Of a stretch of 6,104 nucleotides of DNA, positions 3,236 to 6,104 are shown piece after piece. Under the pieces are notes generated by a model. It searched no databases, had not been told where the DNA came from, and was given only the letters and a program-made list of their open reading frames with translations. The stretch's first letter is position 1. Every line of letters starts with the position of its first letter. The translations under genes and the position numbers were made by a program. The stretch is from Candidatus Eiseniibacteriota bacterium. Its GTDB lineage: Bacteria > Arandabacterota > Arandabacteria > JAGLYR01. Location of the stretch: NCBI GenBank assembly GCA_023132135.1, contig JAGLYR010000104.1, positions 1 through 6,104 on the forward strand, read 5' to 3'.

Positions 3236-4012
3236 ATGGTGGGGTGGTGCGTGCGATTTCGGCAAGGACTCAGGCTGTTTCTGCTTTTCCTCGCCGCCAA
3301 CGCGGCGCCGGTTACGCTGGCGGCAGATCCGGCGCCGGTGTTTCGGGTCGGGGAGACGTTGACCTACGCGCTCAAGTGGGGACCGGTGAGGGCAGGGACA
3401 GCCGTAATGGCTGTCCGCGACACCGTGCGGGTCGATGGCCGGGCATGTTTTCACGTTGTCTCGGAGGCGTGGTCCAACGCGTTCTTCTCTGTCTTCTACC
3501 CCGTCGAGGACCGGGTAGAGACGTGGATAGATGTGGAGCGGTTGGTTCCCCTGCGGCATGAGAAGCATCTCAGCGAGGGAACGTATCACCAGGATGAGAC
3601 GATCGTGTTCGATCACGGCCGCGGGATGGCCCAGTACTCCGACGGTGAGTGGGTGGAGTTCCGGCCCGGTGTTCAGGACATACTGTCGGCGCTCTACTTT
3701 GTCAGATCCCTCAAGTTTTCGCAAAAGGGGCCGATTCTTATTGAGAATCAGACAAACAGAAAGAACTACACACTGGAAGTCAGAGTGCTCCAGGAAGAGT
3801 GGGTCACCACTCCTTCGGGGCGGTACCACTGTACGGTGATCGAGCCTTTCCTGAAGGCGACAGGACTCTTCAGACAGGAAGGGCGGTTGTGGATCTGGTT
3901 GACCAACGATGAGCACCGGATCCCGGTCAAGATGAAGAGCAAGATAAAGGTGGGTTCCATCACCGCTTTGCTGGAGAGTGTGAGCTGGCGGGAAGGAGGG
4001 GAAGCGGAGTGA
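3236..4012 (+). CDS. Exported DUF3108 domain protein
   Basis: The product is predicted to be secreted by Sec and to act in the periplasm or at the outer membrane. The N-terminus has basic residues (VRFRQGLR) followed by the hydrophobic run LFLLFLAANAAPVTLAA, with likely cleavage after an Ala near residues 23-30. There is no lipobox Cys. The mature part begins FRVGETLTYALKWGPVRAGTA, the characteristic opening of DUF3108 (PF11306), and ends with PVKMKSKIKVGSITALLESV, also typical. The family function is not established; proteins of this kind often lie beside LPS or envelope genes. The ATG follows the upstream stop after one base and has little Shine-Dalgarno support. An in-frame GTG at 3251, preceded by GGTGGGG, would give the shorter signal peptide MVRFRQG and may be the true start. 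The 3' end overlaps the next gene by 4 nt. Confidence 0.88.
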   Translation: MVGWCVRFRQGLRLFLLFLAANAAPVTLAADPAPVFRVGETLTYALKWGPVRAGTAVMAVRDTVRVDGRACFHVVSEAWSNAFFSVFYPVEDRVETWIDVERLVPLRHEKHLSEGTYHQDETIVFDHGRGMAQYSDGEWVEFRPGVQDILSALYFVRSLKFSQKGPILIENQTNRKNYTLEVRVLQEEWVTTPSGRYHCTVIEPFLKATGLFRQEGRLWIWLTNDEHRIPVKMKSKIKVGSITALLESVSWREGGEAE

Positions 4013-5019
4013 CATCCGGCAACGCACGCCCGGGTCGGGAGAGGAGCATCGGCGCGTCGAAGTCGCGCTACGGCCGCAGCGATTTCTCCCGAATTCGCAC
4101 GCGGTCTATCCAGGACCGCTCAAGCAAGGTCCACCTGGAACACCTCGCGCAGCCCTACCGCCGGGGATCGCTCTTCTCGGAGTTCCTCGATGGTCTGCCC
4201 GATGTGCTCGCGGTGCGAGACCTGCGGGATCTGGTGACAGCGATTGTCAAGGCGCACCAGAGTGAACTTCCGCGGATCTTCATGATAGGGGGGCATGTCA
4301 TCAAGTGTGGTCTCGGACCGCTCCTGATACAGTTGATGGAACGGGGCGTTGTGACCGCGATCGCGGGTAACGGATCCGTTGCCATCCATGACTTCGAGCT
4401 GGCGATGTGGGGAGGTACCTCCGAGGATGTAGACGAGGCACTCGCGGAGGGGGAGTTCGGGATGACGGAGGAAACGGCTGTGGCCATGAACCAGGCCATA
4501 ACCCGGGGCTATGAGAATGACCTGGGGTTGGGTGAGGTCCTGGGTGAGACACTCCTCCGGGACGCTCCCCACGCAGACCGGAGTGTACTGGCCACCGCGG
4601 TCCGGTTGTCGATCCCGCTGACGATTCACGTGGGAATCGGGACGGATACGATTCACGAACATCCTTCCGCCTCTGGGGCGGCGTTGGGGGAAACCAGCTA
4701 CCGGGATTTCCAGGTTTTCACCCGACAGGTGGAAATGCTGCGGGAGCGAGCCGTGGTTCTGAACATTGGCTCAGCCGTCATTATGCCAGAGGTGTTTCTG
4801 AAGGCTCTCTCGGTGGCAAGAAATCTTGGACAGCCGGCCCGTGGATTCGTGGCTGCCAATTTCGACATGATGTTGCACTACCGGCCCAGGGAGAATGTGA
4901 TCCGGCGACCAACCCTGACAGGCGGGCGGGGCTACGCATTCCTGGGGAGGCACGAGCTGTTACTGCCCCTCTTCTTCGGGGCCATTCTTGAAGCTCTGGA
5001 GTCGGATGTTGTCGAATGA
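4009..5019 (+). CDS. Conserved protein of unknown function, possibly deoxyhypusine-synthase-like fold
   Basis: This is a 336-residue soluble protein without signal peptide or membrane segment. I do not recognise a characterised function. After a basic N-terminal tail of about 35 residues come RIFMIGGHVIKCGL (Lys99), TAIAGNGSVAIHDFE (His127, Asp128), GTDTIHEHPSASGAALG (His216, His218), VVLNIGSAVIMPEVFLKA (252-265) and ANFDMMLHYRPREN. These read as strand-loop-helix units of a Rossmann-like fold. Their order resembles, from memory, deoxyhypusine synthase, where a G-rich loop is followed by TAGGVEEDL and later by PALTDGSLGD and GGGVVKHH. The lysine of that last motif, which forms the enzyme-substrate intermediate, has no equivalent at the matching place (NIGSAVIMPE), so that activity is not expected. 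The GTG start overlaps the upstream stop (GTGA) and has a strong AAGGAGGGG ribosome site at 3993-4001. It is the last gene before the promoter at 5022. Confidence 0.85.
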   Translation: MTSGNARPGRERSIGASKSRYGRSDFSRIRTRSIQDRSSKVHLEHLAQPYRRGSLFSEFLDGLPDVLAVRDLRDLVTAIVKAHQSELPRIFMIGGHVIKCGLGPLLIQLMERGVVTAIAGNGSVAIHDFELAMWGGTSEDVDEALAEGEFGMTEETAVAMNQAITRGYENDLGLGEVLGETLLRDAPHADRSVLATAVRLSIPLTIHVGIGTDTIHEHPSASGAALGETSYRDFQVFTRQVEMLRERAVVLNIGSAVIMPEVFLKALSVARNLGQPARGFVAANFDMMLHYRPRENVIRRPTLTGGRGYAFLGRHELLLPLFFGAILEALESDVVE

Positions 5020-5021
5020 CG

Positions 5022-5050
5022 TTGACTCTTGACGATATATTTGCTAAAAT
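5022..5050 (+). promoter_or_regulatory. Sigma70-type promoter with extended -10
   Basis: A -35 box TTGACT (5022-5027) is separated by exactly 17 nt from a -10 box TAAAAT (5045-5050). The -10 is preceded by TGC (5042-5044), which gives the extended -10 TGN element. The spacer is AT-rich in an otherwise GC-rich window. Transcription would begin near 5057. It starts 3 nt after the upstream stop codon, so it separates the core operon from the sugar transferase gene. A second TTGACG at 5029 is too close to the -10 to serve as its -35. Confidence 0.75.
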
Positions 5051-5097
5051 GAGTAGTTCGGAGGCAAGTGTAGCGGGCAGAATACTTGAGAACAACT

Positions 5098-5119
5098 CTG
5101 TAACTGCGCCTTGTTACAG
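5098..5119 (+). repeat. Perfect 7-bp inverted repeat CTGTAAC-N8-GTTACAG
   Basis: The arms CTGTAAC (5098-5104) and GTTACAG (5113-5119) are perfectly complementary around an 8-nt loop. The repeat lies about 40-60 nt downstream of the predicted transcription start. It could be a hairpin in the leader RNA or a dyad operator for a dimeric regulator; the sequence does not decide which. Confidence 0.55.
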
Positions 5120-5163
5120 GCATTTTACCCGGGGTGGTGAGCAGCCTACGAGAATTTGCTAAG

Positions 5164-5193
5164 GGTTCTGATGGAAGTCGGGTGGTGAGAACC
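5164..5193 (+). repeat. 6-bp inverted repeat GGTTCT-N18-AGAACC in the leader
   Basis: GGTTCT (5164-5169) and AGAACC (5188-5193) are perfect complements around an 18-nt, G-rich loop. This is weaker than the other leader hairpins because of the long loop and may be chance. Confidence 0.3.
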
Positions 5194-5217
5194 AGATTTC
5201 GGCCCCTGGGCAAGCAA

Positions 5218-5242
5218 GGGAGAGGGAGCGCGGGGTCTGGGG
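5218..5242 (+). promoter_or_regulatory. Putative G-quadruplex motif in the leader
   Basis: Four G-runs (5218-5220, 5224-5226, 5232-5235, 5239-5242) are separated by loops of 3, 5 and 3 nt, satisfying the usual G3+N1-7 pattern on the RNA-like strand. The motif overlaps an alternative stem, AGCGCG (5227-5232) with CGCGCT (5243-5248). The two structures therefore cannot form together. GC-rich sequence raises the chance of accidental G-runs, but the surrounding coding strands do not show this arrangement as obviously. Confidence 0.45.
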
Positions 5243-5248
5243 CGCGCT
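5227..5248 (+). repeat. 6-bp GC hairpin AGCGCG-N10-CGCGCT
   Basis: The arms AGCGCG and CGCGCT are perfectly complementary with a 10-nt loop that contains the last two G-runs of the quadruplex motif. Forming this stem would break the quadruplex by consuming the first G of its third run and the bases between runs. Confidence 0.45.
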
Positions 5249-5346
5249 GAGAGCAGGTGGAGAGAGGGCGGTCTGTCTGTTTGGCGTGGCTGGGGGGTGG
5301 CCGGAACCCTAGGCAGCGATCCCAGAGGAGTCCTTCGGTTGAAGAA

Positions 5347-5374
5347 GGCAGGGCGCTGTGCCCTGCCGCTTTTT
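5347..5374 (+). terminator. Rho-independent terminator upstream of the sugar transferase
   Basis: A perfect 8-bp GC-rich stem, GGCAGGGC (5347-5354) with GCCCTGCC (5360-5367), closes a 5-nt loop GCTGT and is followed by GC and TTTTT (5370-5374). It lies downstream of the 5022-5050 promoter and 42 nt before the next start codon, so it would end the leader transcript unless bypassed. A small hairpin CTTC-GGTT-GAAG (5333-5344), or the alternative pairing CCTTC (5332-5336) with GAAGG (5344-5348), sits just upstream; the latter shares two bases with the terminator stem. Confidence 0.75.
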
Positions 5375-5394
5375 GATAACGGCAAGGCGCGGGT

Positions 5395-5413
5395 TGGGAG
5401 GACAGACGTCCCA
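5395..5413 (+). promoter_or_regulatory. Shine-Dalgarno region enclosed in a small inverted repeat
   Basis: GGGAGG (5396-5401) is the only Shine-Dalgarno-like sequence before the ATG at 5417, but it is 15 nt away, longer than optimal. It lies in TGGGA (5395-5399)-N9-TCCCA (5409-5413), and alternatively in GGAC-AGAC-GTCC (5400-5411). Pairing could mask the site, or folding could bring it closer to the start codon. Confidence 0.35.
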
Positions 5414-5416
5414 CTC

Positions 5417-6034
5417 ATGCAGTCGAGCGATGCAGCATATACGTGGACGAAGCGCGTGATTGATGTGACGTTTGCGTTCATTGCACTCGTCATTCTCATG
5501 CCGGTTCTTCTCGTTGTTGCGGTCGGCGTGAAAATGGACTCCACCGGGCCTGTCGTTTTCCGGCAGAAACGTGTCGGGAGGTACGGGAATCCCTTCATTT
5601 TCTACAAGTTCCGGTCGATGGAGGTAGGGGCGGAGGACGCCCGCGCGGAGATCCTTCACCTCAACGAAGCGGAGGCGCCGCTCTTCAAGATGCGCAACGA
5701 TCCGCGAGTTACACGCTTGGGTCGTTGGATCCGGAAGTACGCAGTGGACGAGATCCCACAGTTGGTCAACGTCCTGAAGGGTGACATGAGCTTTGTAGGC
5801 CCGCGGCCACACTTGCCCGAGGAAGCCCGGCAGTACACGCCTGAGCAGTCGCGGAGGCTCTCCGTGATACCAGGGATCACATGCCTCTGGCAGGTCTCGG
5901 GTCCGAAGCGGATCAGTTTCCATGAGTGGATCGCCGCGGATCTCGAGTACGTGAATCGCCGCTGTCTGTCAGTGGATCTGGCAATTGTACTGAGAACCAT
6001 CAAGGTGGTGCTAACGGGTGAGGGAACGTGCTAG
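5417..6034 (+). CDS. Small bacterial sugar transferase (monotopic phosphoglycosyl transferase, PglC/WcaJ-type catalytic domain)
   Basis: The enzyme moves a phosphosugar from a nucleotide sugar to undecaprenyl phosphate at the inner membrane, starting a capsule, O-antigen or exopolysaccharide repeat. With the ATG at 5417 it is 205 residues, the size of the minimal family. It begins with the basic KRVIDV and a hydrophobic segment (FAFIALVILMPVLLVVAVG) whose Pro suggests a re-entrant helix. DSTGPVVFRQKRVG and FYKFRSME follow, then NDPRVTRLGRW, the catalytic pair Asp111-Glu112 in VDEIPQL, DMSFVGPRPHLPEE, and PGITCLWQVSG. The four-helix N-terminal half of WbaP/WcaJ is absent. An in-frame GTG at 5297 would add 40 residues without family resemblance and would place the terminator inside the coding region, so I reject it. 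The donor sugar is not deducible. It has its own promoter region, apart from the upstream core operon. Confidence 0.92.
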   Translation: MQSSDAAYTWTKRVIDVTFAFIALVILMPVLLVVAVGVKMDSTGPVVFRQKRVGRYGNPFIFYKFRSMEVGAEDARAEILHLNEAEAPLFKMRNDPRVTRLGRWIRKYAVDEIPQLVNVLKGDMSFVGPRPHLPEEARQYTPEQSRRLSVIPGITCLWQVSGPKRISFHEWIAADLEYVNRRCLSVDLAIVLRTIKVVLTGEGTC

Positions 6035-6079
6035 CCTGGACTATGCACGAATCCGGAAGGATTCGTGCATAGTCCAGGC
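6034..6079 (+). terminator. Perfect 21-bp hairpin with GGAA tetraloop at the gene end; candidate transcript end
   Basis: The left arm (6034-6054) and right arm (6059-6079) are perfectly complementary over 21 bp around the loop GGAA (6055-6058), a GNRA-type tetraloop closed by C-G. The stem starts on the last base of the stop codon. It is much longer than a usual intrinsic terminator stem, and no T-tract follows (next bases AGAGCAATAG). It may act as a non-canonical terminator or 3'-end stabiliser; an inverted repeat from a mobile or recombination site, or a sequencing/assembly fold-back, are alternatives. The inverted repeat itself is certain, its role is not. Confidence 0.6.
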
Positions 6080-6104
6080 AGAGCAATAGAGAAGTAGACA
6101 ATAG

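Follow-up and report, generated by a model that had tools for sequence, protein, structure and literature searches.

A probable attenuation leader RNA between a promoter and an intrinsic terminator ahead of a sugar transferase gene

Why should a near-consensus promoter be followed by an intrinsic terminator immediately ahead of a gene? The question is raised by a window of 6,104 nt, which makes up all of contig C7 in a draft genome of 3.4 Mb (G000, 96.4% complete) and carries, in order, two heptose genes that resemble the two domains of HldE, two glycosyltransferases, a DUF3108 protein, a GSU2086-family protein, a leader, and a sugar transferase. The GSU2086-family gene (4009–5019, + strand; NCBIfam NF052581, 394.6 bits, above the cut-off) is a syntenic anchor, with relatives in 6/7 other genomes of the phylum at 44–54% identity. 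The sugar transferase (5417–6034, + strand) has the catalytic domain of priming polyprenyl glycosylphosphotransferases (PF02397, 1.9e-64); against TIGR03025 it scores 275 bits, which is under the cut-off, and aligns to the C-terminal part of the model only. At 205 aa it is a short form that lacks the N-terminal half present in the long form, and a long-form sugar transferase with 44% identity is found elsewhere in the genome (C8:16175). The answer that we favor, and consider probable, is that 5022–5416 holds a promoter and an attenuation/antitermination leader through which an exopolysaccharide operon would be expressed by conditional read-through.

The promoter (5022–5050, + strand) is of the sigma-70 type and begins 3 nt past the stop codon of the GSU2086-family gene. 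It consists of a −35 element TTGACT (5022–5027), a spacer of 17 nt, an extended −10 TG (5042–5043), and a −10 element TAAAAT (5045–5050), and agrees with the consensus at 10/12 positions. A promoter this good (at least 10/12 plus the TG) has an expected count of 0.01 per window strand, and one as good or better occurred in a fraction of 0.0002 of shuffles of 5020–5416; five relatives have the same design (TTGACT, 17 nt). Transcription is predicted to start near 5057. The terminator (5347–5374, + strand) was supported by pattern, shuffles, and fold, and reads GGCAGGGC-loop-GCCCUGCC followed by GCUUUUU, with a stem at 5347–5354/5360–5367, a loop of 5 nt as folded, and a T-run ending at 5374, near which the RNA 3′ end is predicted. 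All 8/8 stem pairs have a pairing probability of 0.99–1.0, and a hairpin of equal length and G+C content with a T-run was present in 0.45% (0.0045) of local shuffles. The promoter and terminator sequences are thus above chance, and both elements of the original prediction, an extended −10 promoter with 17-nt spacing and a Rho-independent terminator 42 nt ahead of the start codon, are present.

The ATG of the sugar transferase (5417) lies 42 nt past the T-run, and a pattern search of these 42 nt returned no promoter-like site. Promoter, leader, and intrinsic terminator therefore precede the gene without a further promoter between, which is the general layout of an attenuator leader. The original prediction had offered a stand-alone RNA as an alternative, that is, a small RNA (5057–5374) acting in trans, with the sugar transferase downstream by incident. 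Promoter, RNA, and terminator do form a complete unit, and the leader is unique within its own genome, but the terminator is too near the gene for another promoter, and the distance is shorter still (17–19 nt) in 4/5 relatives, so that the operon needs read-through. We consider a solely trans-acting RNA quite improbable, a dual role as small RNA and attenuator leader being possible.

The predicted leader RNA (5057–5374, + strand) is about 318 nt long, close to the ~315 nt claimed originally. It is noncoding by codon usage, scoring −0.49 to −0.52 per codon in all three frames, whereas 16 genes from the window and the contig after it score +0.20 to +0.38. Two open frames were rejected as coding on the same measure: the sugar transferase frame where it continues upstream of its ATG (open for 76 codons, −0.19 per codon) and a 48-aa ORF at 5016 (−0.42 per codon). 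The leader had also been called structured, for which folding energy gives no support: the fold of all 318 nt exceeds shuffles in stability by only 0.97 SD (z = −0.97; 18/100 shuffles as good), and z = −0.71 without the terminator. This result is compatible with a constitutive partial terminator that ends both upstream-operon and own-promoter transcripts and leaves the sugar transferase at a fixed read-through fraction, the leader sensing nothing. Such a reading is also consistent with a leader sequence unconserved between families, but it does not sit well with a strong promoter placed ahead of the terminator, 3 nt past the upstream stop codon, and a passive terminator would not need the near-invariant hairpin and box that are kept at fixed spacing in the relatives. 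We regard it as unlikely.

Individual parts of the leader fold with more certainty than the whole. A central domain with high pairing probabilities is closed by a long-range helix, whose 5′ arm AGGGUUCUG (5162–5170, + strand) pairs with 5302–5310 at a probability of 0.95–1.0 and whose 3′ arm is CGGAACCCUAGGCAG (5302–5316, + strand). Directly 5′ of the former, UUUGCUA (5155–5161, + strand; fold and pattern) forms the 5′ side of a core helix, with 5157–5160 paired with 5312–5315 (probability 0.93–1.0), and farther upstream a pattern search, designed post hoc, identified a GGGGUGGU box (5131–5138, + strand). A small-molecule riboswitch, responding to a second messenger or a sugar nucleotide, would place its aptamer at 5131–5316 and use the terminator as expression platform; the well-paired central domain, the terminator-type platform, and the location before exopolysaccharide genes all fit. 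Against it, no Rfam riboswitch matched the window even at E 10, the conserved helix of the relatives is a simple duplex in which no ligand pocket is evident, and folds of growing transcripts gave no convincing antiterminator competing with the terminator. We consider a riboswitch very unlikely. A G-rich stretch at 5208–5235 fits a four-run G-quadruplex pattern, which is present in 14% of leader shuffles.

Of the new findings, the conserved leader in five relatives is the most useful. The comparison set comprised seven further genomes from the phylum, all from families other than that of the window (six belong to one family, the seventh to a different one), and loci were located through the conserved upstream pair DUF3108/GSU2086-family in the other family. 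Five genomes from four genera of that one family (G001, G003, G004, G006, and G007) share a common layout: GSU2086-family gene, sigma-54-like site, TTGACT-17-TATANT promoter with an extended −10 as in the window, leader, terminator, and export gene. The first gene past the terminator encodes a polysaccharide export protein and heads an exopolysaccharide operon. Spacings are fixed or nearly so: a GGGAGUGGU box lies exactly 50 nt past the start of the −35, the T-run ends 198–208 nt past the same point, and the start codon follows the T-run at 17–19 nt in 4/5 (149 nt in G006). The leaders form a 15-bp helix with the core AGGUAAGUUUGCUA pairing with UGGCAAACUUACCU (94.7% of cells paired), in which 9/15 pairs are invariant and 1 has changed on both sides; in the terminator helix both-side changes are found at 6/11 pairs. 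Five sequences are too few for covariation to establish the hairpin. Both of its arms are nearly invariant, which fits recognition by a protein, a DNA operator appearing less likely.

A sigma-54-like site, TGGCACGCWAATTGC, which we take to agree with the sigma-54 consensus, lies 162–167 nt 5′ of the −35 in the relatives. Their exopolysaccharide operon is preceded by TGGCACG-N4-TTGC sigma-54-like sites and by repeated TTGCA/TGCAA motifs; site and motifs are both absent from the window. A profile search for a PrsR-type regulator returned many sigma-54 regulators, none of them above the family cut-off. The export gene was detected at 0/80 loci that have the upstream gene in other phyla, many of which have heptose genes next, and the layout therefore looks phylum-specific.

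Is the window leader a member of the same group? At the level of whole sequence the answer is negative. A DNA search of the whole leader against 98 genomes recovered only itself and two chance matches of 26–27 nt, and summed Smith–Waterman scores against the leaders of the relatives were not significant (P = 0.27). A covariance model of the relatives' leaders (R1) aligned with the window leader by the terminator alone (11.8 bits) and had no match in G000; among 386 genomes it had five true matches. Eight further matches of 22–28 bits were not counted as members (of four alignments viewed, three were terminator-only and one was poor over the whole length), and the model supported 0 of 56 pattern matches in viral contigs. 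We also set aside a promoter-proximal match to the arms of the relatives (5049/5117; P = 0.13 over the leader, 0.018 locally).

At the level of short motifs, the window and the relatives share more. The GGGGUGGU box resembles GGGAGUGGU, UUUGCUA corresponds to UUUGCUAC or CUUGCUAC, the GGCA part of CGGAACCCUAGGCAG corresponds to AUGGCAA, and the core pairing in the window is the counterpart of UUUGCUA/UGGCAAA. We defined a signature, written after viewing both leader sets, as the box, 8–22 nt, [CU]UUGCUA, 25–200 nt, and [AU]GGCA[AG]. It matched the five relatives' leaders and window position 5131 only in 2.35 Mb (both strands of redundant, fetched loci), had 0 matches in 1.0 Mb of additional sequence from viral contigs, and was found in 1e-4 of leader shuffles, figures that overstate the case given the post hoc design. 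The window thus has the box and a YUUGCUA paired with a WGGCAR, by a post hoc descriptor and at a position that depends on a contig join. Homology with the relatives' leaders is suggestive from this short signature.

The join in question links C7 to C8. The end of the window (6032–6104) is the first ~70 nt of a ~210-bp repeat, and the start of C8 is its last ~88 nt in the same orientation; the export orthologue of the window's genome, with 33% identity, starts about 100 nt into C8. The simplest join of the contigs would be C7–repeat–C8, though many contigs of the genome end in this repeat, which weakens it. Because the two contig ends carry parts of one repeat, the window leader probably sits at the gene position equivalent to that in the relatives, provided that the join is right. 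The original expectation of conservation in relatives is borne out in part. The architecture is conserved, and the five leaders could be aligned, with both-side changes in the terminator; the sequence of the whole leader is not conserved, the hairpin has a single both-side change (1/15), and the window joins the alignment by its terminator alone. Conditional read-through of a polysaccharide operon gains from the shared layout, the fixed spacings, and the conserved hairpin, and loses from that lack of whole-leader conservation.

No known RNA family accounts for these leaders. Rfam searches of the window and of the leader alone, at lax thresholds, returned terminator-like or chance matches only, the best in the window being SorX (21.4 bits vs. 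a gathering threshold of 46.6), a resemblance that lies mostly in the terminator; the relatives' leaders likewise had no family, lax thresholds included. The RNA class, not recognized at the outset, thus fits no Rfam family. The EAR element of the eps operons of Bacillales is a leader RNA that precedes an exopolysaccharide operon and promotes read-through; the leaders here resemble it in that position but differ in lineage and motif, without any Rfam match. Terminator-type c-di-GMP riboswitches also place a terminator just 5′ of a surface-polymer gene, but the Rfam search gave no aptamer match in the window. RfaH/ops and UpxY systems are alike in acting by anti-termination at the start of polysaccharide operons, and the window resembles NusG-paralogue anti-termination in having a long operon whose leader contains a terminator. 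Both systems, however, need a specialized NusG paralogue, and none (RfaH/LoaP/UpxY) was found in G000 (96.4% complete), which has one match to PF02357; the relatives have one or no such gene per genome. The suggestion of an RfaH/LoaP/UpxY-type factor is accordingly disfavored.

A close parallel in architecture is LoaP acting on the dfn and mln leaders of Bacillus velezensis: ahead of a long biosynthetic operon, the leader there carries first a recognition hairpin and then an intrinsic terminator (PMC12691694). The window is similar in having an upstream candidate hairpin and a downstream terminator. LoaP, however, is a NusG paralogue that recognizes a small UNCG-type hairpin, whereas only one NusG-domain gene was found in the window's genome and the shared core is UUUGCUA/GGCA.

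In the reading that we favor, attenuation with conditional read-through, RNA polymerase would start near 5057, make an untranslated leader of ~318 nt, and stop at 5374 unless a signal allowed it to continue, in which case transcription would extend into the sugar transferase and on, probably, to the export genes of C8. The genes would be transcribed through the terminator because 42 nt in the window, or 17–19 nt in four relatives, can hardly fit another promoter. The putative recognition part is the GGGGUGGU box with the UUUGCUA/GGCA helix, a diverged form of the conserved box and hairpin of the relatives. Because the conserved element is upstream of the terminator and has no overlap with it, its effect is probably exerted on the polymerase during elongation, through a protein that it recruits or a signal that it senses, and not by refolding of the terminator; by analogy, recruitment-type anti-termination, as in LoaP/dfn, is arranged in this way, and overlapping switch helices are not. 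Since no NusG paralogue was found, the recruited factor would be something else, and CsrA, with one copy in the window's genome, is one candidate among others. Transcription, its regulated read-through, the identity of the recognition element, and the trigger are all inferred from sequence.

Our best reading of the leader is therefore a new RNA of a known kind, serving attenuation or antitermination of exopolysaccharide genes, and most likely an RNA switch that would turn production of the cell's sugar coat on or off. Anti-termination recurs in polysaccharide operons, where it has hitherto been attributed mostly to NusG paralogues or to the leader element of Bacillales, and a conserved leader hairpin of fixed geometry in a poorly known phylum, with no NusG paralogue detected, points to another route. 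The five aligned leaders open this route to direct tests in vitro and by reporter fusion. A broader proposal can be made only tentatively, and we would put it well short of an even chance: that exopolysaccharide leader RNAs with a GGGRGUGGU box and a UUUGCUA/UGGCAA hairpin form an undescribed class spanning the phylum, which recruits a factor other than a NusG paralogue to make polymerase ignore a downstream terminator, stands under a double promoter (sigma-54 plus sigma-70) in the relatives, and has in the window its most diverged known member.

The palindrome that follows the sugar transferase forms the left end of the ~210-bp repeat, which is MITE-like (ends TAGCCTGGACTATGCA...TGCATAATCTAGGCTA) and is matched dozens of times across the genome, frequently where contigs end. 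Its initial TAG closes an open frame of >100 codons in 6/9 copies listed (281 codons in the window, 6032–6034), as if the element inserted at the TA of stop codons.
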